Source of the DNA: a virus
Virus record (IMG/VR): IMGVR_UViG_3300046517_002960
Span: 124,001 to 188,000 of that record
Length of the DNA stretch: 64,000 nt
Direction: 5' to 3' (one strand)
Part shown: positions 26,785 to 43,091 of the stretch, in pieces
Position numbering within the stretch: the first letter of the stretch is position 1
Layout: each line of letters opens with the position of its first letter
The notes under the pieces: generated by a model
Database searches by the model: none
Told to the model about the DNA's origin: nothing
The model's input: only the letters and a program-made list of their open reading frames with translations
Position numbers and translations under genes: made by a program

Positions 26785-26819
26785 GCCAACGGTAGCTCAA
26801 TGGTAGAGCACCCTCCGTA
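26785..26819 (+). pseudogene. Second 5' half of a tRNA-Val(UAC)-like sequence
   Basis: GCCAACGGTAGCTC, D arm and CCCTC with loop start CGTAC, running straight into tRNA-Pro(TGG), whose first base is the C of the anticodon. A stray T-arm-like piece (GCGGTTCGAATCCGC) lies just upstream at 26755. Confidence 0.5.
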
Positions 26820-26892
26820 CGGGGCGTAGCGCAGTTGGCCGCGCGCCTGATTTGGGATCAGGAGGACGTCAGTTCGAGCCTGGCCGCCCCGA
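26820..26892 (+). tRNA. tRNA-Pro(TGG)
   Basis: CGGGGCG/CGCCCCG acceptor, loop TTTGGGA on CCTGA/TCAGG, T loop TTCGAGC. Confidence 0.92.
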
Positions 26893-26900
26893 CTGCACGA

Positions 26901-26972
26901 GGTCACCTAGCTGAGACGGATTAGCGGCTGCCTGAAAAGCAGCAGAGGCAGGGTCGCTACCTGCGGTGACCA
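26901..26972 (+). tRNA. tRNA-Phe(GAA), unusual T loop
   Basis: GGTCACC/GGTGACC acceptor, loop CTGAAAA on GCTGC/GCAGC. The T loop is GTCGCTA instead of TTCRANN. CCA follows the discriminator in the DNA (26973-26975). Confidence 0.8.
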
Positions 26973-27173
26973 CCATGGCATGACGGCGGATGGGCGCACG
27001 GGCAAACCGGGTCAGCCATCTTCCGCCTGGCCAGGCGAGTAGCGCTCCGCCTGGTAAGCCAGGCTGCTGCAGCGGCCCGGTCTCATGCCGCCCGGAGACG
27101 GGCCTGGTCACACCTGCGGTCAGCCTCGCAAGGGCGCCTGCCGGTCCCTGCTATCAGGTGGTCTCCGGGACTC

Positions 27174-27246
27174 GCGGATGAGTCCCAAACGGAAGGGTGC
27201 CGGCCCTCCAAGCCGGCTGCTGCGGGTTCGAGTCCCGTCATCCGCT
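27174..27246 (+). tRNA. tRNA-Gly(TCC), C33
   Basis: GCGGATG/CATCCGC acceptor, loop CCTCCAA on CCGGC/GCCGG with C at position 33, T loop TTCGAGT. The 200 bases upstream hold only hairpins (for example 27029-27109, closed by GGCCAGG/CCTGGTC). Confidence 0.88.
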
Positions 27247-27345
27247 CACGTGGGCTGCCACCGCCTCCCTACTAGGCAGCAGCTGGCCCGGCATACGCGG
27301 AGTGACCCCAGCCGGGGAATAACTGGTCACCAGGGGAGGCACCTC

Positions 27346-27417
27346 AGTCCGGTAGCTCAGCGGCAGAGCGGCGGGCTCTTAACCCGCGCGGCCTCGGTTC
27401 GATCCCGAGTCGGACTA
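27346..27417 (+). tRNA. tRNA-Lys(CTT)
   Basis: AGTCCGG/TCGGACT acceptor, loop CTCTTAA on GCGGG/CCCGC, T loop TTCGATC. Confidence 0.93.
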
Positions 27418-27605
27418 CGCAATGGGGGGCTTGTACTGCGGTACTGGCCTTAAACGGTGTCCCGGCTCGGCAATACGCGCGTGTTGCCCTGCACCTGGAG
27501 CGCCCCGCCGTGCCCTGTGCAGGGGCACGAGAACCCGCAGGGACCGTGCGTCAGCTGCGGGCGCCAACGGCTGGCTCGCACGGCCGGCCGGCGGCACTGC
27601 ACGAC

Positions 27606-27690
27606 GGGCGGGTGGCGCAGCAGGATGACGCACCGGATTCAAGTCCCGGCGTCCGTAAGGACATTGAGGGTTCAACTCCCTCCTCGCCCA
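27606..27690 (+). tRNA. tRNA-Leu(CAA)
   Basis: GGGCGGG/CTCGCCC acceptor, loop TTCAAGT, long variable arm with GTCCGTAAGGAC, T loop TTCAACT, encoded CCA at 27691-27693. The 185 bases upstream are hairpin-rich without a gene. Confidence 0.9.
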
Positions 27691-27695
27691 CCATT

Positions 27696-27713
27696 CTCCG
27701 GTCAGCCGGAGAA
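27696..27713 (+). repeat. Looped variant of the dispersed palindrome
   Basis: TCTCCGG/CCGGAGA with loop TCAG, between tRNA-Leu and tRNA-Gln. Confidence 0.4.
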
Positions 27714-27718
27714 TTCCA

Positions 27719-27793
27719 TGCGGTATGGGGGAACTGGCAGACCCGCCGGGCTCTGAACCCGGAGTTTTCCTGGTTCGAAGCCAGGTACCGCAG
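27719..27793 (+). tRNA. tRNA-Gln(CTG)
   Basis: TGCGGTA/TACCGCA acceptor, loop CTCTGAA on CCGGG/CCCGG, T loop TTCGAAG. Confidence 0.92.
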
Positions 27794-27795
27794 CT

Positions 27796-27871
27796 GGAGT
27801 TGCTGGATAGCGCATGGGCAAGGCGCTTAGAGCTGGCCAGCTACCCGTTCGATTCGGGAACGGCAACTCCG
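27796..27871 (+). pseudogene. Degenerate tRNA-like element
   Basis: 76 bases with a perfect acceptor GGAGTTG/CAACTCC and a T loop TTCGATT, but no usable anticodon arm (palindromic AGCTGGCCAGCT) and two competing T stems. Looks like a decayed tRNA. Confidence 0.5.
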
Positions 27872-27940
27872 CACAAGGTGTCCGGCGATTTCGCGTAGGA
27901 GCCGTCCAGCCTTTAACTGGATCGGGGCAACGCGAGCAGT

Positions 27941-28015
27941 GCCCCGGTAGCTCAGGTCGGCCAGAGCGACGGCTTCGTAACCCGTGGGTCCCCAGTTCGA
28001 TTCTGGGTCGGGGCT
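27941..28015 (+). tRNA. tRNA-Thr(CGT)
   Basis: GCCCCGG/TCGGGGC acceptor, loop TTCGTAA, T loop TTCGATT. One C-C mismatch next to the loop. Confidence 0.9.
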
Positions 28016-28017
28016 CT

Positions 28018-28083
28018 GTGCCGGTGCTGGCCTCAATAAGCCGGGCCTTCGGGTCACGCGCCCAACCGGGCTGGTACCGGCAC
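28018..28083 (+). other. tRNA-sized closed hairpin element
   Basis: GTGCCGGT pairs with ACCGGCAC 66 bases apart, with inner helices, but no canonical tRNA arms. One of several such spacers in the array. Confidence 0.4.
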
Positions 28084-28088
28084 TTCAC

Positions 28089-28174
28089 GTCCGGGTGATG
28101 GAATCGGAAGACGTGCTAGCTTGAGGAGCTGGTGCCCCGGAAGGGGCGTGCGGGTTCAAGTCCCGCCTCGGACA
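28089..28174 (+). tRNA. tRNA-Leu(GAG)
   Basis: GTCCGGG/CTCGGAC acceptor, loop TTGAGGA on CTAGC/GCTGG, variable arm GCCCCGGAAGGGGC, T loop TTCAAGT. Confidence 0.9.
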
Positions 28175-28179
28175 CAGGG

Positions 28180-28251
28180 GAAGCAGTAGCTTAACGGACA
28201 GAGCACGGCTGATCACCGACTGGTGAGGGGTTCGAGTCCCTTCCTGCTCCC
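28180..28251 (+). pseudogene. tRNA-Ile(GAT)-like, degenerate
   Basis: D and T arms are present, but the acceptor needs a bulged A and the anticodon stem around CTGATCA has only three pairs. A sound tRNA-Ile(GAT) exists at 29714, so this copy may be dead. Confidence 0.5.
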
Positions 28252-28257
28252 CCGTTC

Positions 28258-28332
28258 GCCGGCCTAGCTCATCGCAGGCAGAGCGTCCGCCTTGTAAGCG
28301 GAGGGTGGCCGGTTTGAGCCCGGCGGCCGGCT
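28258..28332 (+). tRNA. tRNA-Thr(TGT)
   Basis: GCCGGCC/GGCCGGC acceptor, loop CTTGTAA on TCCGC/GCGGA, T loop TTTGAGC. Confidence 0.92.
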
Positions 28333-28336
28333 CCGG

Positions 28337-28409
28337 TGGGGACTGGGGTAACTGGCAGCCCGCCGGCCTTTGAAGCCGCGTAGTGCCCGTCCGAATCGGG
28401 CGTCCCCAG
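28337..28409 (+). tRNA. tRNA-Gln(TTG)
   Basis: TGGGGAC/GTCCCCA acceptor, loop CTTTGAA, T loop TCCGAAT. Confidence 0.9.
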
Positions 28410-28418
28410 CAATAACAC

Positions 28419-28492
28419 GCCCCGGTAGCTCAGCCGGTAGATGCGTCGGCATGGTAAGCCGAAGGTCCGCGGTTCAAATCCGCGTCGGGGCT
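28419..28492 (+). tRNA. tRNA-Thr(GGT)
   Basis: GCCCCGG/TCGGGGC acceptor, loop ATGGTAA on TCGGC/GCCGA, T loop TTCAAAT. One base from the RNase P RNA. Confidence 0.92.
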
Positions 28493-28493
28493 C

Positions 28494-28839
28494 GAGCCGG
28501 CCGGACGGCCGCGGTACCTGCACGTCAGGTACTGAGGAAAGTCCGGGCTCCAACGGGCAGGACGGTTGTTAACGGCAACCCGGGGCAACCCGCGGGAAAG
28601 CGTCACAGAAAGCAGACCGCCCCGGCGACGGGGTAAGGGTGAAACGGCGGTGTAAGAGACCACCAGCGGACCGGGTGACCGGCCCGGCTCGGCAAGCCCC
28701 GTCCGGAGCAAGATCGCAAGGCCGAGGGCGGCCCGCCCGCTGACGCCTGGTGGATCGCACGAGCTCGCCGGCGACGGCAGGCCTAGATGGATGGCCGTCC
28801 CCCTGCGGCGGGGACAGAACCCGGCTTACAGGCCGGCTC
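28494..28839 (+). ncRNA. rnpB: RNase P RNA
   Basis: 346 bases closed by P1 (GAGCCGGCC with GGCCGGCTC). In order the conserved blocks are GAGGAAAGTCCGGGCTCC (CR-I with P4 5' strand), CACAGAAA, AGGGTGAAACGG, GTAAGAGACCACC, a GGTGGA segment where the CCA-binding loop is expected, CTAGATGGATGGCCGTC and GACAGAACCCGGCTTACA (CR-V with P4 3' strand). All parts needed for catalysis seem present, in bacterial type A order and slightly shorter than typical actinobacterial versions. It removes 5' leaders from pre-tRNA together with the host (or a phage) RnpA; no rnpA is seen in this window. It sits between tRNA-Thr(GGT) and tRNA-Gly(GCC), so it may be cut from the same transcript. Confidence 0.93.
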
Positions 28840-28905
28840 AATGCCCGCTCCCCGGAGCGGATGTGCGGCGTAAGACCCGGCCGGCCGCGCGGCCCGGGCA
28901 GTCAT

Positions 28906-28978
28906 GCGGACGTGGCGCAGCTGGTAGCGCACGTGCTTGCCAAGCATGAGGTCGCGGGTTCAAATCCCGTCGTCCGCT
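28906..28978 (+). tRNA. tRNA-Gly(GCC)
   Basis: GCGGACG/CGTCCGC acceptor, loop TTGCCAA on CGTGC/GCATG, T loop TTCAAAT. Confidence 0.95.
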
Positions 28979-28980
28979 CT

Positions 28981-29048
28981 GAGATCACGCGGGATACTGG
29001 AGTGGCCCTGTCTGAACCGCATCCGCGAACAGCGATCGCCGTGATCTC
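28981..29048 (+). other. tRNA-sized closed hairpin element
   Basis: GAGATCAC pairs with GTGATCTC 68 bases apart; the inside lacks a canonical T loop. Confidence 0.4.
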
Positions 29049-29050
29049 GC

Positions 29051-29134
29051 GCCCCGCTGGCGAAGCTGGAAGACGCGCACGGTTCAGGACCGTGTGTCCG
29101 TGAGGACGGGAGGGTTCAAATCCCTCGTGGGGCA
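29051..29134 (+). tRNA. tRNA-Leu(CAG)
   Basis: GCCCCGC/GTGGGGC acceptor, loop TTCAGGA on CACGG/CCGTG, variable arm GTCCGTGAGGAC, T loop TTCAAAT. Confidence 0.92.
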
Positions 29135-29139
29135 CTTCA

Positions 29140-29230
29140 GGAGGGTTGGCCCGGAGCTGGCGTACTGGGACCGCACTGCTAATGCGGCAGTCTGGAGACA
29201 GGCTCGCGAGTTCGATTCTCGCACCTTCCG
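29140..29230 (+). tRNA. tRNA-Ser(GCT)
   Basis: GGAGGGT/ACCTTCC acceptor, loop CTGCTAA on CCGCA/TGCGG, long variable arm, T loop TTCGATT. Followed by a hairpin GGCTCTCCC/GGGAGAGCC. Confidence 0.92.
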
Positions 29231-29386
29231 CGAGCAGGACAGGCTCTCCCCGCTGGCGGGCAGGTTACCCGCAGGGAGAGCCGGCCGGCGGCGGTAATCG
29301 GCCACCCCACCTGCCCTAGACGCTCTCCGGAATCCGCACCGGGAAGCGCCAAGCCCGGCGTCCCGGGCACTGCAGATTCTACCCCT

Positions 29387-29474
29387 GGAGGGTTCGCCTA
29401 GTGGCCTATGGCGCCGGCCCGGAAAGCCGGTTGGGACGAAAGTACCCTCGCGAGTTCGACTCTCGCACCCTCCG
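29387..29474 (+). tRNA. tRNA-Ser(GGA), C33
   Basis: GGAGGGT/ACCCTCC acceptor, loop CCGGAAA on CCGGC/GCCGG with C33, T loop TTCGACT. Nearly identical to the Ser(CGA) gene at 29604, so one arose by duplication. Confidence 0.9.
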
Positions 29475-29512
29475 CCAGCCTGGCCGTCCGGAGAATGGCG
29501 GCTGGGCCTGCT

Positions 29513-29599
29513 GGAGGATTCGCCTAGCGGCCAGGGCAGCCGATTTGAAACCGGCCAGGGGTCTTGCAGCCCTCGCGAGTTCGAGTCTCGCATCCTCCG
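29513..29599 (+). tRNA. tRNA-Ser(TGA)
   Basis: GGAGGAT/ATCCTCC acceptor, loop TTTGAAA, T loop TTCGAGT. A-C mismatch beside the loop. Confidence 0.9.
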
Positions 29600-29603
29600 C
29601 CCG

Positions 29604-29691
29604 GGAGGGTTCGCCTAGTGGCCTATGGCGCCGGCTTCGAAACCCGGTTGGGACGAAAGTACCCTCGCGAGTTCGACTCTCGCACCCTCCG
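29604..29691 (+). tRNA. tRNA-Ser(CGA)
   Basis: Same body as Ser(GGA) with loop TTCGAAA; C-C mismatch beside the loop. Confidence 0.9.
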
Positions 29692-29713
29692 CTTCACACC
29701 GTGCTTCACACAT

Positions 29714-29788
29714 GGGCCGGCAGCGTAGCCCGGTTCTCGCAGCTGGCTGATAACCAGTTTGGCGGAGGTTCAAATCCTCCCCGGCCCA
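29714..29788 (+). tRNA. tRNA-Ile(GAT)
   Basis: GGGCCGG/CCGGCCC acceptor, loop CTGATAA on GCTGG/CCAGT, T loop TTCAAAT, encoded CCA. Confidence 0.9.
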
Positions 29789-29792
29789 CCAT

Positions 29793-29866
29793 GGCGAGAT
29801 AGCTCAGGCTGGCAGAGCGCCGGACTCATACCCCGGAGGTCGGGATCTCGGTATTCCCTCTCGCTA
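29793..29866 (+). tRNA. tRNA-Met(CAT), elongator type or Ile2
   Basis: GGCGAGA/TCTCGCT acceptor, loop CTCATAC on CCGGA/CCCGG, T loop CTCGGTA, encoded CCA. It lacks initiator features. A lysidine-modified tRNA-Ile2 cannot be excluded. Confidence 0.75.
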
Positions 29867-29869
29867 CCA

Positions 29870-29945
29870 CGGCCCGTAGTTCAGCCTGGCTTAGAACGGC
29901 ACCCTTATGAAGTGTGCGTCAGGGGTTCAAATCCCCTCGGGCCCA
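29870..29945 (+). tRNA. tRNA-Ile(TAT)
   Basis: CGGCCCG/CGGGCCC acceptor with a C1-C72 mismatch, loop CTTATGA, T loop TTCAAAT, encoded CCA. Bacteria normally read AUA with a CAU tRNA, so UAU is unusual. A shifted reading gives anticodon ATG, which I consider less likely. Confidence 0.7.
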
Positions 29946-29949
29946 CCAT

Positions 29950-30525
29950 TCAGGAAGCACCGGCTAGCGGCACCTGCCGGGCGTTCCAGGCGCTGACGGC
30001 GGACAGCGTGAACCCGTCCGTGATCTCCCCGGCAGCGATCATCGCGGTGAGCCCGGAAAAGGTCAGCCACCGGATCTCGGTGATCTCCTCGGTGTCGGCC
30101 GGCACGGCCTGCATGGCCGCGGCACCTACCCGGGCCGCGTACATGTGCACCGCGGTCCCGAGGTGCGCGGAGTCCGGATGGACGCAGCCCAGGAATACCA
30201 GGTCCAGGGCCGCGGCGCCGATCTCCTCGATCAGCTCGGCGCGGGCGGTGGTCTCAGGGCAGGGGCCGTGCGCGTAGCCGCGGGGGAAGCCCCATTCCCA
30301 TTCCTGGGTGGCGTAACGCCAGGTCCGGACCAGGGCGGTATGCTCGCCGGTCACCGGCATGACGACCACGCCGGGATGGCCGCTCCCGGAGATGATGCGG
30401 TAGTAGCGGCCCTGCCGTCCGGAGGAGAACCGGACGTGATCATCAAATACGGTGACGAACCGGTTCCGGTAGACGATCTCCTCGGCGATTCTCTCGATCG
30501 GCGGCGCGCTGGCAGGTGCAGTCAT
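29950..30525 (-). CDS. Nudix hydrolase with divergent box
   Basis: 191 residues. WEWGFPRGYAHGPCPETT followed by AELIEEIGA matches the Nudix box except that the usual R before E is A and the first E is replaced. The flanks (VFDDHVRFSSGRQGRYYRI, IRWLTFSGLTAMIAAGEITD) fit ADP-ribose pyrophosphatase-like members. It would hydrolyse a nucleoside diphosphate linked to another group, in the cytoplasm. It lies inside the tRNA array on the opposite strand, convergent with tRNA-Ile. Loss of the Arg leaves activity uncertain. Confidence 0.7.
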   Translation of the reverse strand: MTAPASAPPIERIAEEIVYRNRFVTVFDDHVRFSSGRQGRYYRIISGSGHPGVVVMPVTGEHTALVRTWRYATQEWEWGFPRGYAHGPCPETTARAELIEEIGAAALDLVFLGCVHPDSAHLGTAVHMYAARVGAAAMQAVPADTEEITEIRWLTFSGLTAMIAAGEITDGFTLSAVSAWNARQVPLAGAS

Positions 30526-30603
30526 GATCTTCCGTTCCCGCTCCCTGCCCCTGACAACGTGTCACAGCGAAGATACGTTCAGTGAGTAGCCTTATGTAAG
30601 CAG

Positions 30604-30675
30604 GGTCCGCTAGCTCAACGGCAGAGCATCCGACTTTTAATCGGCTGGTTCAGGGTTCGAGCCCCTGGTGGACCA
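30604..30675 (+). tRNA. tRNA-Lys(TTT)
   Basis: GGTCCGC/GTGGACC acceptor, loop CTTTTAA, T loop TTCGAGC. Confidence 0.95.
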
Positions 30676-30676
30676 C

Positions 30677-30880
30677 TCAGCCCCAGGACACCATCTGCGG
30701 GGCCGGGTGCTTGGTCCAGGTGTCGGCGAGCGCCGGGTGCGCGTGCTTGGTCCAGGTGTCGGCGACGGTCGCGTGATGCGGAGCGGGCGGGGTGCCCCAG
30801 GACACCATCGCGGCACCGGAGCCCGTGGCAACGGCGGCTGCGAGGACGAGAGCGGCGATCCTGGCCTTGGCGGATTTCAT
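30677..30880 (-). CDS. Small secreted protein with short repeats
   Basis: 67 residues, MKSAKARIAALVLAAAVATG then GSGAA: a typical signal peptide. The mature part repeats MVSWG and ADTWTKH. The start follows GGGAAGG. Probably exported; role unknown. It is nested in the tRNA array on the minus strand. Confidence 0.6.
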   Translation of the reverse strand: MKSAKARIAALVLAAAVATGSGAAMVSWGTPPAPHHATVADTWTKHAHPALADTWTKHPAPQMVSWG

Positions 30881-30987
30881 AGCGTTACCTTCCCCGTTAC
30901 TAGGTGTTCTCATAACTGAGCGTACAGACCGGTCACAGCGTGTCAATAGCTTGCGCGGCACTTTCCGTAGCCGTAAGGTGACAGGAT

Positions 30988-31060
30988 GCGCCTGTAGCTC
31001 AAGGGGATAGAGTCTCGCCTTCTAAGCGAGGGGATGGGGGTTCGATGCCTCCCGGGCGCG
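30988..31060 (+). tRNA. tRNA-Arg(TCT)
   Basis: GCGCCTG/CGGGCGC acceptor, loop CTTCTAA on CTCGC/GCGAG, T loop TTCGATG. Confidence 0.93.
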
Positions 31061-31064
31061 CTGG

Positions 31065-31123
31065 GGACCCCGGCCTGCGAGGCGGCCCGTGAGCCGTCGC
31101 CGGCAGATCCGGCACCGGGGTCC
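31065..31123 (+). other. Closed hairpin element
   Basis: GGACCCCGG pairs with CCGGGGTCC, 59 bases in all, after tRNA-Arg. May end the transcript or be a processing unit. Confidence 0.4.
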
Positions 31124-31191
31124 TCAACTAGTCTCAGCTGAGATATCGCGTAGTAGCCTCTTGAGACATCGGTCATTGCTATACTGAAAAC

Positions 31192-31686
31192 ATGACCATG
31201 CCCACGCCGCACTTCTGCGACTGTGGATGTGGTGAGAAAACAGCTGTTGCCCCGAGGAATAATACGAAGCGGGGATACGTCAAGGGCTTGTCGTTCCGGT
31301 TCGTCGGACGGCATCATGCCTGGAAAGGCGACGAGGCCAGCTATCGTGTCTTGCACACAGCTCTGAACCTGCACTACCCGAAGTCAGGCGTGTGCGAGGA
31401 GTGCGGCGCGGAAGCAGAGACCGAGTACTCACTGATTCATGGCCGTCAAGTGTCTCGGCGGCGCGAGGATTACAGGGAGCTCTGCAAACCCTGTCACCAT
31501 GGTTACGACACGGGCGGGGAGCGCAGCCTGAACGCTAAGCTGACGGAAGCGAACGTGCGTGATCTCAGAGTGCGCTTCGATGACGGGCAAGGCGAGCCTA
31601 TTGAAGTTCTTGCTCGCGAGTACGGCGTTTCTCCCGCGGCGGCTTACCGGGCTGCGACGCGCAAGTCCTGGCGTCACGTCGCTTGA
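31192..31686 (+). CDS. HNH endonuclease with C-terminal helix-turn-helix
   Basis: 164 residues. N-terminal Cys cluster FCDCGCGEKT, a second pair CEECGAEAE followed by the H-G-R segment, and LCKPCHHGYD, the HNH-type zinc and catalytic set. The C-terminus (IEVLAREYGVSPAAAYRAAT) is a helix-turn-helix that could recognise the target. A TATACT -10 box lies about 10 bases before the ATG, so the message is nearly leaderless. More AT-rich than neighbours; a mobile gene between tRNA genes. Confidence 0.8.
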   Translation: MTMPTPHFCDCGCGEKTAVAPRNNTKRGYVKGLSFRFVGRHHAWKGDEASYRVLHTALNLHYPKSGVCEECGAEAETEYSLIHGRQVSRRREDYRELCKPCHHGYDTGGERSLNAKLTEANVRDLRVRFDDGQGEPIEVLAREYGVSPAAAYRAATRKSWRHVA

Positions 31687-31722
31687 CGGATGTACCTGAA
31701 GATTGCTTCTGAACGCTTACAT

Positions 31723-31797
31723 GGTCCTGCAGGCCAGCCAGGAGTGGCCGTCTGCCCCTCAAGCAGGAGATCGCGGGTTCGAATCCCGCCAGGACTA
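31723..31797 (+). tRNA. tRNA-Glu(CTC), C33
   Basis: GGTCCTG/CAGGACT acceptor (G1-U72), loop CCCTCAA with C33, T loop TTCGAAT, encoded CCA. Confidence 0.88.
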
Positions 31798-31801
31798 CCA
31801 T

Positions 31802-31876
31802 GGCCCCATAGTGCTAGCGGTCCAGGCCGCCTGCCTTTCAAGCAGGAGATCACGGGTTCGAATCCCGTTGGGGCTA
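31802..31876 (+). tRNA. tRNA-Glu(TTC)
   Basis: GGCCCCA/TGGGGCT acceptor, loop CTTTCAA on CCTGC/GCAGG, T loop TTCGAAT. Close paralogue of the preceding Glu tRNA. Confidence 0.93.
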
Positions 31877-31890
31877 CGGTGTAAATGCGA

Positions 31891-31962
31891 CGCGGAGGGT
31901 GCTAGGTCAACCAGCCAGGCTCATAACCTCGGCAAACGCGGGTTCAAATCCCGCCTCCGCTA
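31891..31962 (+). tRNA. tRNA-Met(CAT), initiator-like
   Basis: CGCGGAG/CTCCGCT gives an unpaired C1-U72 end, the hallmark position of bacterial initiator tRNA. Loop CTCATAA, T loop TTCAAAT. The three G-C pairs usual in the anticodon stem are only AGG/CCT, so the initiator call is tentative. Confidence 0.65.
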
Positions 31963-31966
31963 CTAA

Positions 31967-32034
31967 GGTGCCCTGGAGCGTTTCCGGCTGACTACCGGTC
32001 GTCGCCCCGGGTTCGTCGCCGGGATCAGGGCACC
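31967..32034 (+). other. tRNA-sized closed element, D-arm-less tRNA-like
   Basis: GGTGCCCTG pairs with CAGGGCACC. Inside are CCGG-CTGACTA-CCGG, which looks like an anticodon arm (GAC), and CCCGG-GTTCGTCG-CCGGG, which looks like a T arm, but there is no D arm. A normal tRNA-Val(GAC) exists at 32311. Confidence 0.4.
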
Positions 32035-32038
32035 CCAG

Positions 32039-32110
32039 TCCCCCATAGCTCAATGGCAGTAGCGCCCGGCCGTTAACCGGTGGATCTTGGTTCGAGTCCA
32101 GGTGGGGGAG
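32039..32110 (+). tRNA. tRNA-Asn(GTT), C33
   Basis: TCCCCCA/TGGGGGA acceptor, loop CCGTTAA with C33, T loop TTCGAGT. Confidence 0.9.
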
Positions 32111-32123
32111 CGCAGAAACACAA

Positions 32124-32197
32124 GGTGGCGTAACTCAGCAGGTCAGAGTGCTGGACTGTCTATCCGGAAGTCGCGGGTTCGAATCCCGTCGTCACCG
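32124..32197 (+). tRNA. tRNA-Asp(GTC)
   Basis: GGTGGCG/CGTCACC acceptor, loop CTGTCTA on CTGGA/TCCGG, T loop TTCGAAT. Confidence 0.93.
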
Positions 32198-32310
32198 CTA
32201 GCACCCAGTCCCTGGTGCTTGCCCGGAAGGTCTTCCGCACACTGCGCGCGGCAGCGGAAGCGCCTGGCCGGGGAACCCGCGACAGCGTAACAGCGGCGGA
32301 TGGGACACAC

Positions 32311-32384
32311 GGTCGCTTAGCTCAGTTCGGGAGAGCGTCGTCCTGACGCGACGAAGGCCACTGGTTCAATCCCAGTAGCGACCA
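32311..32384 (+). tRNA. tRNA-Val(GAC)
   Basis: GGTCGCT/AGCGACC acceptor, loop CTGACGC on TCGTC/GACGA, T loop TTCAATC. Confidence 0.93.
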
Positions 32385-32398
32385 CGCAGTACCAGCAA

Positions 32399-32471
32399 GT
32401 CCCCGTAGCTCAACGGATAGAGCTGCTGCCTACGGAGCAGTGCGTTGCAGGTTCGAGTCCTGCCGGGGATG
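32399..32471 (+). tRNA. tRNA-Arg(ACG)
   Basis: GTCCCCG/CGGGGAT acceptor (G1-U72), loop CTACGGA on CTGC/GCAG, T loop TTCGAGT. Confidence 0.93.
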
Positions 32472-32540
32472 CCAGCGGAGAGGTATCGGCAGTACCGTAA
32501 AGCCAGGTCACGTGCCCGAGGACCTGCGCCTCTCCGTCAA

Positions 32541-32616
32541 GGGCGGTTAGCTCAGCGGGAGAGCGCTGGGTCCACACCCCGGGACATTTGCGCCGGTTCG
32601 ATCCCGGCACCGCCTA
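32541..32616 (+). tRNA. tRNA-Val(CAC), C33
   Basis: GGGCGGT/ACCGCCT acceptor, loop TCCACAC on CTGGG/CCCGG with C33, slightly long variable loop, T loop TTCGATC. Confidence 0.87.
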
Positions 32617-32618
32617 CT

Positions 32619-32690
32619 GTGGCCGTAGCTCAATGGTCAGAGCAACGGGCCGTGAACCCGAATATGCGCGTTCAATTCGCGTCGGCCACC
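32619..32690 (+). tRNA. tRNA-His(GTG), C33
   Basis: GTGGCCG/CGGCCAC acceptor, discriminator C as in His tRNAs, loop CCGTGAA on ACGGG/CCCGA with C33. The base before position 1 is T, so the extra G of His tRNA is not encoded there. Confidence 0.88.
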
Positions 32691-32692
32691 CC

Positions 32693-32776
32693 GGCAGGTT
32701 ACCCAAGCGGACAAAGGGAGCTGTCTGTAAAACAGTCGGCATTACGCCTGCGCTGGTTCGAACCCAGCACCTGCCA
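32693..32776 (+). tRNA. tRNA-Tyr(GTA)
   Basis: GGCAGGT/ACCTGCC acceptor, loop CTGTAAA on GCTGT/ACAGT (G-U closing), variable arm, T loop TTCGAAC. Confidence 0.93.
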
Positions 32777-32777
32777 C

Positions 32778-33197
32778 ATGAACACGAAAACGAGAATCGG
32801 CCTGGACTACTGGCAGGTCTGCAGCCACTGGCCGTACTTCGGCGAGCTGGCGGCGGCCCTGCGGGCGGCAGGCCATGAGGTGCACGTCATCTCGGCGGTC
32901 GGCCGGAAATCCGCCGGCACCGTCGCGCCCGGGCTAGCTGAGCTCGGTATCGCCGTTGACGGCGTGCACGAGCGGCTGTTCCGCCATCCGCGGGAGTCGC
33001 CGCAGCTGAAGCTGGCCGCGTGCCGGGAACTGGGCATCGGGGTCTTCTACGACGACCGGCAGGACGTGACCGACCTGCTGAACGCGAACGGGATCCTGGC
33101 CCTGCGGGTGCCGCGGCGCCAGGCCGGGCTGTCGGACACTGAGGGAGAACGGCGGGGCTCGCCGCCGCGGGGTGATCGTGACCCGGCAGCCGTCTAA
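32778..33197 (+). CDS. HAD-like (NIF-type) protein, catalytic motif incomplete
   Basis: 139 residues from the ATG directly after tRNA-Tyr. RIGLDYWQVCSHWPYFGELA, then LRAAGHEVHVISAVG and VFYDDRQDVTDLLNANGI follow the layout of phage HAD phosphatases (DxD motif, motif II strand, DDR motif). The second Asp of DxD is replaced by Trp, so hydrolysis may be lost. It lies between tRNA genes in the same direction and could be involved in RNA end metabolism, but that is only context. Confidence 0.55.
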   Translation: MNTKTRIGLDYWQVCSHWPYFGELAAALRAAGHEVHVISAVGRKSAGTVAPGLAELGIAVDGVHERLFRHPRESPQLKLAACRELGIGVFYDDRQDVTDLLNANGILALRVPRRQAGLSDTEGERRGSPPRGDRDPAAV

Positions 33198-33262
33198 GGT
33201 CGTGACCCGGCTGAACGAGAAAGACCCGCCAGCCTCAGGGCACAGCGGGCCGCAGTAAGCAG

Positions 33263-33336
33263 GACCCCATAGCTCAGCGGATAGAGCACCGCCCTCCGGA
33301 GGCGGGTTGTCGCAGGTTCGAATCCTGCTGGGGCCA
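33263..33336 (+). tRNA. tRNA-Arg(CCG)
   Basis: GACCCCA/TGGGGCC acceptor with an A2-C71 mismatch, loop CTCCGGA on CCGCC/GGCGG, T loop TTCGAAT. The same mismatch recurs in Arg(CCT). Confidence 0.9.
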
Positions 33337-33395
33337 CTGGCTGGCAGGTGAGCAGGCTGACACCGCCTTCGGGCTCAGCCCCCTGCCGGCCGTAC

Positions 33396-33468
33396 CGCCG
33401 AGTGACCGAGCTGGCTAGGTGAACGCCTGCAAAGCGTTTTGACACGGGTTCAAGTCCCGTCTCGGCGT
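33396..33468 (+). tRNA. tRNA-Cys(GCA)
   Basis: CGCCGAG/CTCGGCG acceptor, loop CTGCAAA on AACGC/GCGTT, T loop TTCAAGT, encoded CCA. Confidence 0.93.
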
Positions 33469-33472
33469 CCAC

Positions 33473-33546
33473 GACCCTGTAGCTCAGCCGGATAGAGCAG
33501 GCGCCCCCTAAGCGCTATGTCGCGGGTTCGAATCCCCCCAGGGCCA
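33473..33546 (+). tRNA. tRNA-Arg(CCT), C33
   Basis: GACCCTG/CAGGGCC acceptor with A2-C71 mismatch, loop CCCCTAA on GGCGC/GCGCT with C33, T loop TTCGAAT. Last tRNA before the Y RNAs. Confidence 0.85.
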
Positions 33547-33560
33547 CGTATGATGAGGAC

Positions 33561-33629
33561 GGCACGGGCCGGAGGCAGTCGGTTATCTTCGAACAAGTCA
33601 AGCCGGTTACCGCACACATGCCCGCTGCC
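33561..33629 (+). ncRNA. Y RNA-like element Y1
   Basis: 69 bases. Outer stem GGCACGGGC with GCCCG(C)TGCC. 5' block GGGCCGGA-6-CGGTTATC and 3' block ACATGCCCG shared with all six copies. The insert is short, without a tRNA-like part. Confidence 0.8.
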
Positions 33630-33661
33630 CTTCCCCTGGTGCTCACGCTATGAAAGAACGC

Positions 33662-33774
33662 GAGACGGGCCGGAAGGAAATCGGTTACCGGAAAACGGGA
33701 CTCACACTCCTGCAGAGGGATTCGAAGCCCTCACCCCCGCAAGGGGAACCGGTTCCCGGCAACACGCCCGTCTC
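33662..33774 (+). ncRNA. Y RNA-like element Y2
   Basis: 113 bases. Outer stem GAGACGGGC/GCCCGTCTC. 5' block GGGCCGGA-7-CGGTTACC, 3' block ACACGCCCG. The insert holds a T-arm-like hairpin (GAGGG, TTCGAAG, CCCTC) and CCCC-GCAA-GGGG. Confidence 0.85.
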
Positions 33775-33776
33775 TC

Positions 33777-33926
33777 AGCTTGAGCCCGGCGGGCCGGACG
33801 TGATGCCGGTTATCGAAGGTTCGACTCCTCCAGGCCCCACTCTCACGGGGCCTCCCGTTCGGCGGGATCCCTCCCTGACACGGAGGGAAGCCCGGTGTCC
33901 ACTCACATGCCCGCCGGCCTCAAGCT
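33777..33926 (+). ncRNA. Y RNA-like element Y3 with tRNA-like domain
   Basis: 150 bases. 17 of 18 positions of the outer stem pair (AGCTTGAG...CCGGCGGGC with its complement). 5' block GGGCCGGA-8-CGGTTATC. The insert reads like a circularly permuted tRNA: T arm (GGTTCGACTCC), AGGCCCC-loop-GGGGCCT as joined acceptor, CCCG-TTCG-GCGGG as D arm, CCCTCC-CTGACAC-GGAGGG as anticodon arm. Confidence 0.85.
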
Positions 33927-33934
33927 GCAAGCCC

Positions 33935-34017
33935 CTGGCGGGCCGGATGAGGGTCGGTTATCACCAGACTCCTAATCTGGCGCGATAGCGCTCCGGTCCC
34001 CGTAACACGCCCGCCAG
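33935..34017 (+). ncRNA. Y RNA-like element Y4
   Basis: 83 bases. Outer stem CTGGCGGGC/GCCCGCCAG. 5' block GGGCCGGA-7-CGGTTATC, 3' block ACACGCCCG. The insert has a perfect anticodon-arm look-alike (CCAGA, CTCCTAA, TCTGG) and GCGC-GATA-GCGC. Confidence 0.85.
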
Positions 34018-34033
34018 CCACAATTTCATAGAC

Positions 34034-34173
34034 CTGACGGGCCGGACGAGAATCGGTTACCGCCTTGGGAGCGCGTGGTTGCAGGTTCGAGTCCTGTCAG
34101 CCCTCCGGAAGGGGGGCTGTAGCTCAATTGGCAGAGCGCGTAAACGGCCGGTTCACAAGCACACGCCCGTCAG
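34034..34173 (+). ncRNA. Y RNA-like element Y5 with permuted tRNA-Pro(UGG)
   Basis: 140 bases. Outer stem CTGACGGGC/GCCCGTCAG. 5' block GGGCCGGA-7-CGGTTACC, 3' block ACACGCCCG. The insert is a nearly complete tRNA in permuted order: loop CTTGGGA (anticodon TGG), 3' anticodon strand GCGCG, T arm GCAGG-TTCGAGT-CCTGT, acceptor CAGCCCTC joined through CGGAAG to GGGGGCTG, then TA, D arm GCTC-AATTGGCA-GAGC and 5' anticodon strand CGCGT. The two anticodon strands pair. Confidence 0.87.
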
Positions 34174-34184
34174 CTAACTGAAGA

Positions 34185-34289
34185 CAAGCCCCCGCGGGCC
34201 GGAAGCGGAGCCGGTTATCGCCAACCATCCAACACTGGTACCGCGGCCACGTGCCGCACCGGTTCCCGTCAACATGCCCGCGGGGCTTG
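34185..34289 (+). ncRNA. Y RNA-like element Y6
   Basis: 105 bases. Outer stem CAAGCCCC(C)GCGGGC with GCCCGCGGGGCTTG. 5' block GGGCCGGA-8-CGGTTATC, 3' block ACATGCCCG. The insert has GCGGC-CACGT-GCCGC. It ends 31 bases before the Ro60 start. Confidence 0.87.
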
Positions 34290-34319
34290 CCTTCACAGAT
34301 CAGGAGGAGGAACACGATC

Positions 34320-35972
34320 ATGACCAACGACGCGCTGACGCAGATCCGGACCCGGGGCCGGGCCACGCCGCAGTCCGAGCAGGCCCACCCGGCGCAGATC
34401 CGGAACGACGCAGGCGGCTGGGCGTTCCAGGCTTCCGACGAGACCCGGGTGCACCGGTTCCTGACCATCGGCACCACGGGCGGCACCTTCTACACCGACG
34501 AGCGCAAGGCGACGCGGGACAACGGCGAGCTGATCATCGAGTTCGCCCGGGCCAACGCGTCCCGGCTGGTCCAGATGGCCACTGAGGTGTCCGTCGCGGG
34601 CCGCGCGCCGCGCAACCAGCAGGCGATCCTGGCCCTGATGGCCGCCATGGCCCTGGGGGACACTGAGGGCCGGCAGGCCGCGGAGCGTGCCTTCACCGAC
34701 GTCGTGCGGACCGGCACGCACCTGTTCACGGCGGCCAGGTACGCCGAGCAGTTCCGCGGCTGGGGCCGTATCGCCCGGCGCGCGTTCGCCCGGTGGTACC
34801 TGGACAAGGACGCCGAGCCGCTGTCCTACCAGCTGGTCAAGTACCGGCAGCGGGACGGCTGGACGCACCGTGACGTGCTCCGTTCCGCGCACTCCACCAG
34901 CGGCTGCGACGCCGCCCACGCGCAGCTGTTCGACTGGCTGTGCGGCCGGGAGGCGGACGGCGAGCGGCCGAAGTGGATCGCCGCGTACGAGCGCGCCCGG
35001 GAGATCGAGCGCGGCTCCGAGCCGGCCGGCGCCAGGACGGCTGCCTACGTGCGCCTCATCGAGGAGTACCCGGGCATCCCGTGGGAGGCGCTGCCGGACG
35101 AGGCCACCTCGCAGGCAGACGTCATGCGGGCGCTGATCGAGGCCGGCATGCCGGTCACGGCGCTGATCCGGAACCTGCCGAAGCTGACCCGGCTCGGCGT
35201 GATCGCCCCGATGAGCACGCACCTGCGGCTCGTCACGGAGCGGCTGACCAACGCTGAGCTGCTGCGCAAGGGCCGGGTCCACCCGGTTTCCCTGATGGTC
35301 GCAGCCAAGGTGTACGCCTCCGGCCGGTCCGAGCCGCGCCCGAACAGGCCGGTAGTCACGTGGACCCCGGTGCCGCAGGTCTCCGACGCGCTGACCGGCG
35401 CGTTCTACGCCGCCTTCCCGGCGGTGGAGCCGGCCGGCAAGAGGACCATGGTCAACCTGGACATCTCGGGTTCCATGACCAGCTCGGCCGCGGGCTACTG
35501 CGTCTCGGCGCGGGAGGTCGTGGCGGGCATGGCCCTGGTGACCATGAACACCGAGCCGGCCTGGGGCGTGTACGGCTTCAGCACCCAGTTCATGCCGCTG
35601 CAGCTGTCCCCGGGCATGCGGCTGGATGAGGCGATGCGGTACATGTCGCGACTGCCGTACGGCGGCACCGACGCCTCGCTGCCGATGCAGTGGGCGGCCC
35701 AGACCCGTACCGAGGTGGATGTCTTCCAGATCTCCACCGACTACGAGACCTGGGCGGGCTCCATGCACCCGCACGAGGCGCTGGAGAACTACCGCCAGAA
35801 GATGGGCATCAACGCCCGGATGCAGATGATCGCGGTCGCCCCGAACGAGTACTCGTTCTGGCCGCACTCCGCTCCGGGGTCCATCGCTGCCGACCTGGGC
35901 GTCCTGGACGTCAGCGGTTTCGACACCGACGTCCCGGTGCTCCTGGCCAACCACGCCCGGGGCGACATCTGA
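34320..35972 (+). CDS. rsr: Ro60 ortholog (TROVE + VWA domain RNA-binding protein)
   Basis: 550 residues. Start chosen at the ATG behind AGGAGGAGGA, not an upstream ATG without a site. Residues 1-350 are the TROVE ring of helical repeats (ETRVHRFLTIGTTGGTFYTD is the family signature near the N-terminus). Residues 365-545 are the von Willebrand A domain with a complete MIDAS: LDISGSMTS, then GGTDASLPMQW, then ISTDYE. Ro60 is a doughnut-shaped cytoplasmic protein that binds misfolded RNA ends in its hole and Y RNA on its outside; in Deinococcus it tethers to PNPase through Y RNA for rRNA and RNA decay. Six Y RNA genes lie directly upstream in the same direction, as expected for a Ro/Y unit. Intact and of typical length. 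Confidence 0.92.
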   Translation: MTNDALTQIRTRGRATPQSEQAHPAQIRNDAGGWAFQASDETRVHRFLTIGTTGGTFYTDERKATRDNGELIIEFARANASRLVQMATEVSVAGRAPRNQQAILALMAAMALGDTEGRQAAERAFTDVVRTGTHLFTAARYAEQFRGWGRIARRAFARWYLDKDAEPLSYQLVKYRQRDGWTHRDVLRSAHSTSGCDAAHAQLFDWLCGREADGERPKWIAAYERAREIERGSEPAGARTAAYVRLIEEYPGIPWEALPDEATSQADVMRALIEAGMPVTALIRNLPKLTRLGVIAPMSTHLRLVTERLTNAELLRKGRVHPVSLMVAAKVYASGRSEPRPNRPVVTWTPVPQVSDALTGAFYAAFPAVEPAGKRTMVNLDISGSMTSSAAGYCVSAREVVAGMALVTMNTEPAWGVYGFSTQFMPLQLSPGMRLDEAMRYMSRLPYGGTDASLPMQWAAQTRTEVDVFQISTDYETWAGSMHPHEALENYRQKMGINARMQMIAVAPNEYSFWPHSAPGSIAADLGVLDVSGFDTDVPVLLANHARGDI

Positions 35973-40309: not shown

Positions 40310-41411
40310 TCACCCCCCGGGCACGCTGGGTGACTGGCTGCCGGCCTGCCGCGCGAACAGCCCGGCGTAGGCGGCTTCCCACTGCTGCCAGTGGTCCTCG
40401 ATCAGGTGCCGGCGGGCCATCTCCCGGGCCGCCTCGCCCATCTTGGCGCGCAGCGCGTCGTCGCCGGCCAGCTCGGACAGGTACTTCAGCCATTCGTGGT
40501 CGCGCTTCACCAGGAAGCCGTCGACCCCGTGGGTGATCACGGCCCGGTACGGCTCGATGTCGCTGGCGACGGTCGGGATCCCGCGGGCGCCGTACTCGAT
40601 CGCCTTAATTGCCGATTTACTTTTCGAAAACGAGGTGGGCCACAGCGGGGCCAGGCCGATGTCGAAGTTGATCCCGGCGAAGTACTTCTCCGGGTGCTTG
40701 TAAACCGGCACCCAGCCGATGTAGGACATCCGGTCGTACGGCACGCCCTCGTCCCCGAAGGTCTCCCGGTAATCCGAGCCGTTCAGCTGCAGGTCCCAGC
40801 CCGGAAACCGCTTGAGGAACCGGTGGACCGGCGATGCCACCTGGCCGATGTCGACGCCATGGCTCGCGCCGCCCTGCCAGCCGACCCGCGGCCGTTTCCG
40901 GCCGGGCCGCGGCAGCCGGGTAGCCCAGCCCGGGACGCAGTTAGGCAGCACGGCAACCCGGTCGTGCCCGGCTACCTCGCGCATTACCCGCGCCAGCGGC
41001 TCGGTGGTGACGGTAACCAGGTCGGCGGTCTCGGCGGCGTGCTGGGTCGCATCCCGGATCTCCGGGCGGCCGTACAGGTGGTAGGCGTTCCAGTTCTCGG
41101 CCGTCACGTTCCACAGGTCGTCATCGAGCTCGTAGACCAAGCGGCTGAACGGGCCGCGGGCGCGCCGCCACACATGCAGCCCGTCGTGCTTGTTCCACCG
41201 CTGCGCCACGATCACGTCATAGCCCGCCAGGTCGCCCAGGGTGACCGAGACCGGGTGACCGTCATCGCCGGCGTCGGTGAAATGCACCTCGTGCCCGCCG
41301 TACCGGGCCAGCGCGTCCAGGGGTGCTTTCATGCGATACCAAGCCTAAAGCGCACCCCGAGCCGCCATCGTGCCCGGCGAAAATCTTCAAGGGTGCAGGG
41401 TTCACCGGCAT
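40310..41411 (-). CDS. GT-B glycosyltransferase, N-terminus out of frame
   Basis: The main frame (340 residues from 41332) starts MKAPLDALARYGGHEVHFTD and has VAVLPNCVPGWATRLPR, PRVGWQGGASHGVDIGQV, DIGLAPLWPTSFSKSKSAIK and EYGARGIPTVASDIEPYRAV: a GT4-type sugar transferase. The true start seems to be the ATG at 41411 behind GGAAGGAG (MPVNPAPLKIFAGHDGGSGC), one frame off; the shift lies at TTTAGGC near 41355. The span is 3n+1, consistent with one extra base. It transfers sugar from a nucleotide donor, probably to virion or envelope. Confidence 0.72.
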
Positions 41412-41519
41412 GTTACCGCTCCTTCCGCTCTACACATCAACTTGGCATCCCGGATGCCGTGCATCTGCAGCCAGCTGTAGGCACACCCTGAACCGCCATC
41501 ATGTCCAGCGAAGATTCTA
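41402..41519 (-). pseudogene. Duplicated glycosyltransferase N-terminus
   Basis: IRIFAGHDGGSGCAYSW and a short tail repeat the start of the next gene (KIFAGHDGGSGCA) at both DNA and protein level (about 44 bases). No clear start codon. Looks like a remnant of a tandem duplication. Confidence 0.5.
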
Positions 41520-41549
41520 ATCAGGGGACTCCCTCGCTAAGCTGGCGCC

Positions 41550-41792
41550 ATGAGTGCCATGCCAGGTGATAACAGGGCCAGGGACGCCTACGGCGACTGG
41601 TGCGCGCAGATGGGCGGCGTTGATGCCGATGGCCGGGTACTGCGCCGCTGGGAGCAGCTGAACGGCCAGGAGCGGGCCGCGTGGGAGACCGTGATCGAGA
41701 ACGCCGGGCTGGCCGCCGCCCGGGCCGCCGACCGGGTGAACCAGGCGGCGGCCGGGGCGCCGGGCTGGCCGCCGCCCGCGGAACTGCGCTAG
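41550..41792 (+). CDS. Hypothetical protein
   Basis: 80 residues, MSAMPGDNRARDAYGDWCAQ to PPPAELR. Helical, with WEQLNGQERAAWETVIENAG. Rightward, between leftward genes; function unknown. Confidence 0.5.
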   Translation: MSAMPGDNRARDAYGDWCAQMGGVDADGRVLRRWEQLNGQERAAWETVIENAGLAAARAADRVNQAAAGAPGWPPPAELR

Positions 41793-41795
41793 CCC

Positions 41796-42119
41796 TCACG
41801 GCCGCTCCCGGTCGGCCAGCGCGGCCAGCCGCGCCCGCTCGCGCTGCAGGTACCAGATGGCCTTGGCCAGGTCGGTGTCCGCGTCCGCGCCGGGCTTGAG
41901 CCCGTGCCGCCAGGCGTACTTGACGGCGCTGCCGACATTGAACGACATCGCCTCGGTGACGTCGATGCACTCGATCTGCTCGCCGCAGCCGTGGCACTGC
42001 GCGCCGAGGCTGCCATAGTGCGCCGGGTGGCTGACCTGCTCGCCCTGCCCGGGCTGGCCCGTGTCGTCCGTGACGGACGTGACGGGCTGCAGCATCGTCG
42101 CGGGCCGCGGATCGTTCAT
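41796..42119 (-). CDS. DUF3310 protein (SaV-like nucleotide kinase fold)
   Basis: 107 residues. HPAHYGSLGAQCHGCGEQIE, then CIDVTEAMSFNVGSAVKYAW and HGLKPGADADTDLAKAIWYL are the DUF3310 signature in order. The family is widespread in phages, often near nucleotide genes; the role is not settled. An inserted CHGCGEQIEC adds a small Cys knuckle not usual in the family. Confidence 0.8.
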   Translation of the reverse strand: MNDPRPATMLQPVTSVTDDTGQPGQGEQVSHPAHYGSLGAQCHGCGEQIECIDVTEAMSFNVGSAVKYAWRHGLKPGADADTDLAKAIWYLQRERARLAALADRERP

Positions 42120-42385
42120 GGCCGCAGCAGCGCGTTCGCCGGGGTGGCGACCAGCAGGCCGGACCCGCCGAGGGAGTCGCCCAGCTCACGGATCAGCCCG
42201 GCCCAGGCCAGGATGTCGGCCTTGGGCAGCTGGAGGGTCAGCGTGGTGGTCGGGGTCCGGACGGTGAGCACCCCGAGCGCGCCGCTGACCCCGGTGAACA
42301 GCTGGGCCGGGCCGGGAGCCAGCAGCGTGTTGGCCTCATCGACTACCGGCGGCAGCCCGGCGTCCGGGGCGGCGGGCATGGACAT
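42116..42385 (-). CDS. Hypothetical protein
   Basis: 89 residues, MSMPAAPDAGLPPVVDEANT to LLRP. Ends overlapping the DUF3310 start (ATGA). A beta-type middle (LGVLTVRTPTTTLTLQLPKA). Function unknown. Confidence 0.5.
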   Translation of the reverse strand: MSMPAAPDAGLPPVVDEANTLLAPGPAQLFTGVSGALGVLTVRTPTTTLTLQLPKADILAWAGLIRELGDSLGGSGLLVATPANALLRP

Positions 42386-42398
42386 GATCAGCCTCCGT

Positions 42399-43091
42399 TC
42401 ACGTAACGGGCCGGGCAGTAACAGGAGCGCGCCCGGCGCCGGGCTGGCCTTCTGGCACGGGGTCCCAGCCGGGGCCGCGCCAGACCGAGGGCCACGCGTC
42501 GCAGGTGTCAGCCTCCACCCGGACGTAGCCGATCCCGGCGCGGAGCCAGGCCCAGACCAGCTCCCAGTCCTCGTACGCCCCGCCCGCCCACGCCGCGACC
42601 TCCGTGAGCCCCGCCCGGTGCATGATCATCGGCGTGCCGACGTTACCCAGCGCCAGCTCGCCGTGCCCGACCGACTGGTCGCCGTGCGGGGCGTGCTGGA
42701 GCATCCGCGACACAGCGAACCCCGCCTCCGGGTGAGCGTCCAGCGCGGCGGCCAGCCGGTAGCAGTGATCCGGGCGCAGCGAGTCGTCGTCATCGCAGTA
42801 GGTGACGTACTGCCCGGCCACCAGTCCGAGCCCGGCGTTGCGGACCGCGCCGCCCCAGTGCGGTTCCTCGTCGTGCGCCGGCAGCGCGTGGAACCACAGG
42901 TCCTTCCAGCCGTGCAGCCACGGCATCGACAGGTCCGCGGCCAGCTGCGGGTCCGGGCCGTCGCTGACCACGATGTGCTCCACCCGGGGGTAGCCCTGAG
43001 CCTGGACGCTCGGGATGCACCGGGCCAGCAGCAGCTGGCGGCGCTGCCAGGTCGGCGTGATCACCGATACCAGCGGCATCTCATCCGTCAC
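42399..43091 (-). CDS. GT2-type glycosyltransferase
   Basis: 230 residues from GTG. GT-A fold markers: PLVSVITPTWQRRQLL, then VEHIVVSDGPDPQL and VTYCDDDDSLRPDHCYRLAA (DxD metal site). KHWGG-like acceptor site EPHWGGAVRNAGL present. It would add one sugar from an NDP donor. First of three GT2 genes in this cassette. Confidence 0.8.
   Translation of the reverse strand: MTDEMPLVSVITPTWQRRQLLLARCIPSVQAQGYPRVEHIVVSDGPDPQLAADLSMPWLHGWKDLWFHALPAHDEEPHWGGAVRNAGLGLVAGQYVTYCDDDDSLRPDHCYRLAAALDAHPEAGFAVSRMLQHAPHGDQSVGHGELALGNVGTPMIMHRAGLTEVAAWAGGAYEDWELVWAWLRAGIGYVRVEADTCDAWPSVWRGPGWDPVPEGQPGAGRAPVTARPVT

Follow-up and report, generated by a model that had tools for sequence, protein, structure and literature searches.

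Six Y RNAs beside a phage Ro60 gene carry heads made of tRNA parts, one of them a circularly permuted tRNA with a split anticodon arm

The DNA analysed here (the window, 64 kb in length) comprises positions 124001–188000 of a 190,216-bp virus record, IMGVR_UViG_3300046517_002960. Because genes for capsid, prohead protease and portal are present, the source is a tailed phage; a reference-phage collection held no near-identical DNA match over the 24 kb tested. On the plus strand a cluster of tRNA genes is followed by six structured elements (33561–34284), which an earlier note had read as tandem Y RNAs, and these by ro60, the gene of the Y RNA-binding protein Ro60. The features are as follows; E-values (E) refer to a covariance model built from related phage elements (see below).

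25960–33547, plus strand: 38 tRNA genes covering nearly all amino acids; the array starts directly 3' of them.
33561–33629, plus strand: Y element 1, short, with a bulged outer stem (motifs; fold z −0.13).
33662–33774, plus strand: Y element 2, whose head holds an anticodon arm, a T-arm-like hairpin and a small acceptor-like hairpin, the D arm being absent (fold; E 3e-7).
33696–33712, plus strand: anticodon-arm mimic of element 2, CGGGA-CTCACAC-TCCTG, anticodon CAC (Val), its loop identical to that of Mycolicibacterium tRNA-Val(CAC).
33786–33917, plus strand: Y element 3, whose head holds a T arm, an acceptor-like hairpin, a UUCG hairpin and an anticodon arm (fold; E 1.8e-7).
33868–33888, plus strand: anticodon-arm mimic of element 3, TCCCTCC-CTGACAC-GGAGGGA (7-bp stem), anticodon GAC (Val), its loop identical to that of cellular tRNA-Val(GAC).
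33935–34017, plus strand: Y element 4, with a 9-bp outer stem, an isolated anticodon arm and a GCGC(GATA)GCGC hairpin (E 6e-8).
33964–33980, plus strand: anticodon-arm mimic of element 4, CCAGA-CTCCTAA-TCTGG (5-bp stem), anticodon CCU (Arg).
34034–34173, plus strand: Y element 5, a complete four-armed head with the predicted form of a circularly permuted tRNA (partial Rfam YrlA match, alignment, covariation).
34061–34075, plus strand: anticodon arm of element 5, nucleotides 29–43, CGC-CTTGGGA-GCG plus CG, anticodon UGG (Pro).
34081–34097, plus strand: T arm of element 5, GCAGG-TTCGAGT-CCTGT (covariation).
34098–34119, plus strand: acceptor stem of element 5, its ends sealed by a loop (fold, covariation).
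34121–34140, plus strand: D arm of element 5, then nucleotides 26 and 27–28 (G, CG), which complete the split anticodon stem (covariation, split-stem test).
34191–34284, plus strand: Y element 6, ending 35 nt before the Ro60 start codon (fold z −4.0; E 1e-5).
34320–35972, plus strand: Ro60, 550 amino acids in an intact open reading frame (Pfam TROVE 5e-38 and vWA_Ro60 1e-46, both above the curated cut-offs).

Exactly six copies of the motif that defines the array, GGGCCGGA-N6-8-CGGTTAYC, are present in the window, always on the plus strand (33566, 33667, 33791, 33940, 34039 and 34196), and none in 100 dinucleotide shuffles, which bears out the placement of six elements here. Each element also has a single ACAYGCCCG at its 3' end (33616, 33762, 33905, 34005, 34161 and 34272), a sequence found at three further, unrelated sites. 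The statement that every element is closed by an outer stem of its own holds for elements 2–6, where the stem is a perfect 9 bp, and is slightly generous for element 1, where GGCACGGGC pairs with GCCCG-C-TGCC around a one-base bulge. That stems of differing sequence remain paired, and hence reflect selected RNA structure, was confirmed in two comparisons. Among 42 elements chosen by the exact motifs alone, pairing not being a criterion, outer positions 2–5 pair in 37, 36, 35 and 33 cases, compared with 26.8, 18.0, 16.8 and 17.4 when the 3' arms are redealt. In an alignment of 30 elements resembling element 5, both sides have changed in 18 of the 27 consensus pairs, and compensation is seen in each of the outer, T, acceptor and D stems. 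Folding of the individual elements, compared with shuffles, bears out the claimed structure in part: four fold clearly better (z −2.9 to −4.0), element 5 moderately so (z −1.9, for a 3'-trimmed stretch), while element 1, the weakest of the six, does not.

Searches with covariance models gave a mixed answer. The Rfam model of bacterial Y RNA (YrlA, RF02553) matched element 5 best, at 38.7 bits against a curated cut-off of 69, and left the other five unmatched. Since the cut-off is not reached, the elements are not assigned to RF02553. A test that misses five of six elements is not sufficient, and the same model also stays below its cut-off in Methylobacterium, Mycolicibacterium and a Verrucomicrobia genome despite clear Ro60-linked Y RNAs. 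The model built from the 30 related phage elements matches elements 2–6; for element 5, which is part of the model, the match follows by construction, and tandem tRNA genes reach an E-value of 1e-6, so that the matches of elements 2–4 and 6 rest equally on motifs and stems. Sub-threshold Rfam matches of elements 1 and 2 to a nematode small RNA were taken as chance. The terminal stem and its shared motif are conserved and covary, as in the Ro60-linked Y RNAs of bacteria, and the tRNA-like domain of such RNAs is found in element 5, with covarying T, acceptor and D arms. We conclude that the six elements are, by sequence, predicted structure and position, the Y RNAs of a Ro60 system carried by a phage.

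The gene that follows the array in the same direction is, as the earlier note held, a complete ro60. Its product aligns over the full length with Deinococcus Rsr (PDB 2nvo, E 2.5e-94) and vertebrate Ro60. Residues K174 and R178, and D381, S383, S385, T450 and D474 of the metal-ion-dependent adhesion site (MIDAS), are kept in all 14 of 14 phage Ro60 proteins, and H191 in 12 of them; the protein of the window has every one of these residues. K174, R178 and H191 align with Xenopus K170, R174 and H187, which we take to be contacts to Y RNA.

What the earlier note called different inserts, without recognising their content, are by their sequence pieces of tRNA. An anticodon arm with a 7-nt loop is present in four of the six elements: 2 (Val CAC), 3 (Val GAC), 4 (Arg CCU) and 5 (Pro UGG). 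A loop matching a cellular actinobacterial anticodon loop exactly is found in a hairpin of three of the six elements (mean among shuffles 0.0125, never above one in 2000 shuffles). Elements 2, 3 and 4 each share their loop with a tRNA of the Mycolicibacterium genome, and one of these loops occurs in Kribbella as well, these two reference genomes standing in for a host that may be neither. In the head of element 3 the order of tRNA parts is permuted, the T arm coming first, and in a relative (L005) the same stem carries CTTACAC (UAC, Val). The arm of element 4 is kept in L006 and L035 (CCU) and in L008 (CTTCTAA, Arg UCU), with a compensatory change in the third base pair, CCTGA/TCAGG replacing CCAGA/TCTGG.

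Element 5 goes furthest. From 5' to 3' its head consists of an anticodon hairpin, a variable loop, a T arm, a loop-sealed acceptor stem and a D arm. Read from these predicted arms, element 5 is a tRNA cut within the anticodon arm and joined at its original ends. The Y stem, predicted to bind Ro60, is inserted between nucleotides 28 and 29 of the anticodon stem, which is thereby split into two plus three base pairs (CG+CGC / CTTGGGA / GCG+CG).

The anticodon arm was examined across related elements in three tests that differed in how the elements were selected. RNAalifold, applied to the 30-element alignment, omitted it, MAFFT having misregistered the arm, whose stem is split; tests anchored on the arms were therefore used. 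A free search for a hairpin beside CGGTTAYC in 291 phage elements returned a 7-nt loop in 144, compared with 32–65 for any other size, and 123 of these 144 carry U33 (loop position 2). When the loop is picked by its letters alone, the three flanking base pairs form in 71, 68 and 73 of 85 elements (redealt means 28, 34 and 43), and the next positions out, 4 and 5, are unpaired: the stem is exactly 3 bp. The opposite end of the head provides the two missing pairs: at the base of the D arm, the dinucleotide that follows position 26 pairs with 42–43. Pair 28–42 forms in 59 of 71 elements, compared with a redealt mean of 25 and maximum of 38, and with at most 20 when the register is slid; the three main variants, CT/AG, CG/CG and CC/GG, compensate one another. 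With the loop letters left free, a split 5-bp stem with a 7-nt loop fits 57 of 74 elements that have a D arm, while other loop sizes in the same register fit at most six.

Within these 57 loops U33 is found in 55 and a purine at 37 (R37) in 56, A38 is conserved, and positions 34–36 vary. Anchoring on the T and D arms alone gave the same picture, with 40 of 67 phage elements at a loop of 7 and a variable loop of 5 (at most 12 at other settings) and, for bacterial elements, 23 of 42 (at most four elsewhere). Real tRNA anticodon loops from the same set of loci equal 36 of the 57 mimic loops; in a wider set 64 of 105 match, compared with a column-shuffled mean of 37. The split 5-bp stem, 7-nt loop, U33 and R37 together are those of a circularly permuted tRNA that includes its anticodon arm. 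GCG, an anticodon rare in real tRNAs, is among the commonest of the mimics in phage Y RNAs (loops CTGCGGA and ATGCGGA, for example in L063, L114 and L115).

Bacterial Y RNAs of the YrlA family share the location beside Ro60, the lower stem closed by the RNA ends and the circularly permuted T, acceptor and D arms (PMC8394870, PMC11472068); for Salmonella YrlA the permutation was already known (PMC11472068). The Rfam consensus structure, however, lacks an anticodon loop, whereas the phage elements retain it by means of the stem split two plus three. The accessible Y RNA descriptions likewise name D, T and acceptor arms only (PMC8394870); the primary papers (Chen et al. 2014; Wang et al. 2018) may show the arm. 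Gammaproteobacterial RF02553 matches were informative: three (L293, L295 and L296) fit the split arm, with loops TCCATAA, TTGTCAC and TTTTGGA, and two (L294 and L297) have the intact stem and no split arm. The notion that gammaproteobacterial YrlA has no anticodon hairpin is thus wrong for three of five sequences. Because these three fit, the arm looks like an overlooked feature of the YrlA family and not an invention of phages.

The array as such is a common arrangement, given that phage and bacterial Ro60 loci alike carry these elements. A pattern scan of viral contigs and two Ro60 searches yielded 91 Ro60 loci on phage contigs with upstream Y elements, one to nine at each, at least four at 32 and at least six at eight; these strict-motif counts are lower bounds and give five for the window. 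Of 291 phage elements, 287 lie upstream of Ro60. At 65 of the 91 loci no more than 60 nt separate the end of the last element from the Ro60 start codon, and at about a fifth the distance exceeds 100 nt. The largest array seen (L019) has at least nine elements. Gordonia phage Sixama has Y elements on both sides of Ro60, one upstream and one downstream, the latter beside tRNA genes (L283 4678–4809).

A Ro60 search of bacterial genomes found 80 loci, and the phage-element model strongly matches bacterial Ro60 loci in Mycolicibacterium, Nocardia, Herbidospora, Kribbella, Methylobacterium, Chloroflexi and others. Downstream of Ro60, an Anaerolineales genome (L194 4702–6364) has a Y-like array whose motif is diverged (GGGTCGA...GGGTTATC) and which includes masked stretches of N. 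The reading as structured, Ro60-linked Y RNAs beside a phage Ro60 therefore stands, while the view of a six-member array with differing inserts as something undescribed does not. According to the accessible text of PMC12282133, which cites Chen 2014, Ro60 with neighbouring Y RNA genes has been reported or suggested for mycobacteriophages and a Listeria phage. The mycobacteriophage relatives Cane17 and ET08 have one recognisable element, whereas the window has six, with heads derived from different parts of tRNA. In the records of Cane17, ET08, Sparky, BearBQ and Sixama the Y elements occupy stretches with no fitting annotation; in Samisti12 and Zooman the motif scan found no elements.

Several further features of the locus were noted. 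A scan for promoters and terminators returned one weak promoter-like site and, on the other strand, one terminator-like site, neither of them informative. Seven of the 38 window tRNAs have C33 in place of U33 (Gly TCC, Ser GGA, Glu CTC, Asn GTT, Val CAC, His GTG and Arg CCT). A matching of the mimic anticodons to window tRNAs with deviant loops (Val CAC, Val GAC, Arg CCU) was considered and discarded: deviation from the two reference genomes is seen in about half of the tRNAs of this phage, so the coincidence lacks significance. Glycosyltransferase, NAD-dependent epimerase and methyltransferase genes on the minus strand (3778–4845, 22569–25135 and 40310–48458) resemble a sugar-modification set.

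What might such RNAs do? We give an even chance to the reading, made from the genes and predicted structures, that this is a phage Ro60 ribonucleoprotein locus in which tRNA mimics anchored on Ro60 engage tRNA-recognising enzymes, anticodon nucleases being the favoured ones. The six Y RNAs would presumably be transcribed together with the tRNAs and ro60. Their shared lower stem would bind the ring of the phage Ro60, as the conserved motif, the covariation and the conserved contact residues suggest, and the heads, held out by Ro60, would be offered to enzymes that recognise tRNA. Partners that read the anticodon are favoured because U33 and R37 are retained while the anticodons vary. Anticodon nucleases suggest themselves as candidates: tRNA-rich actinophages are believed to contend with them (PMC10264068), and for the tRNA-like domain of YrlA competitive inhibition of such a nuclease has been proposed (PMC7790460). 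The RNAs might then occupy host anticodon nucleases while the phage's own tRNAs sustain translation. The resemblance to phage tRNAs whose changed anticodon loops are predicted to evade host nucleases (PMC10264068) lies in the setting, a tRNA-rich actinophage with several of its own tRNAs altered in the anticodon loop; the heads differ in that they are not tRNA genes and keep a canonical position 33. C33 occurs in none of the 57 mimic loops compared with 36 of 257 phage tRNAs (14%; p 8e-4), as expected of bait.

The more specific proposal sees the Y RNAs of bacteria and phages as circularly permuted tRNAs that bear an anticodon, and the phage arrays, with their differing anticodons, as Ro60-held baits against host anticodon nucleases; it is tentative, and in this full form we think it rather improbable. 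A number of observations weigh against a bait. Bait loops should resemble host loops more than phage tRNA loops do, but exact matches to the two actinobacterial genomes are equally frequent (28 of 47 mimic loops and 143 of 240 phage tRNAs, 60% and 60%), and position 33 alone differs. The anticodons of the 57 loops span many amino acids, and known nuclease targets are not clearly over-represented among them; elements 1 and 6 gave no clear anticodon loop; and the arms of elements 2 and 3 are confined to this phage or one close relative. The RecA-dependent tRNA nuclease of Salmonella did not cleave YrlA (PMC7790460). Finally, cellular bacteria share the same architecture, which therefore is not a phage-only counter-defence.

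The serious rival to a bait is a tether. Deinococcus has a machine of Rsr, Y RNA and PNPase (RYPER), and the window shares with it, as far as genes alone can tell, the Ro60 fold family and its Y RNA partners. Were the heads to dock Ro60 to the host PNPase or a similar exonuclease, a machine degrading structured RNA would form during infection, the anticodon arm merely completing a tRNA-shaped handle. Such a role of Y RNA is demonstrated in Deinococcus, YrlA is described as an adaptor (PMC7790460, PMC8394870), and the Y RNA contact residues of Ro60 are conserved. Tethering leaves unexplained, however, why positions 33, 37 and 38 stay canonical beside varying 34–36, and why some heads (element 4 and its relatives) consist of an anticodon arm alone. 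We consider it possible, if not probable.

The conserved U33, R37 and A38 could also be explained by modification at 34, 37 and 38, if the tRNA shape served to recruit tRNA-modifying enzymes that stabilise Y RNAs. DusA and TruB do modify YrlA, by way of its D and T loops (PMC8394870), but the short elements with only an anticodon arm have neither loop, and a handle for maturation strikes us as unlikely. A still smaller chance falls to control in the ro60 leader, in which the last element would be a Ro60 binding site limiting Ro60 synthesis and the others free Y RNAs: the proximity of that element to the start codon at most phage loci is suggestive, but is also predicted by co-transcription and breaks down at the loci with more distant elements, and one element only would be accounted for. 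That the elements are functionless debris, degenerate tRNA fragments caught between Y stems, as their tRNA parts and the adjoining 38 tRNA genes might suggest, is almost certainly wrong, being contradicted already by the compensatory changes among divergent phages, which affect the outer, T and acceptor stems as well as the split anticodon stem, and by the recurrence of the same design in distant bacteria.

The anticodon arm changes how mimicry of tRNA by Y RNA is to be seen: beyond an imitation of elbow and acceptor, the head would be a complete tRNA that displays an anticodon. Positions 33–38 of the mimic loops would offer a sequence handle on the enzyme partner of the Y RNA head, a question as old as the discovery of Y RNAs in bacteria. 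Phages amenable to growth in M. smegmatis or Gordonia would allow a direct test of the suggestion by Hughes et al. (2020) that an anticodon nuclease is inhibited by YrlA.

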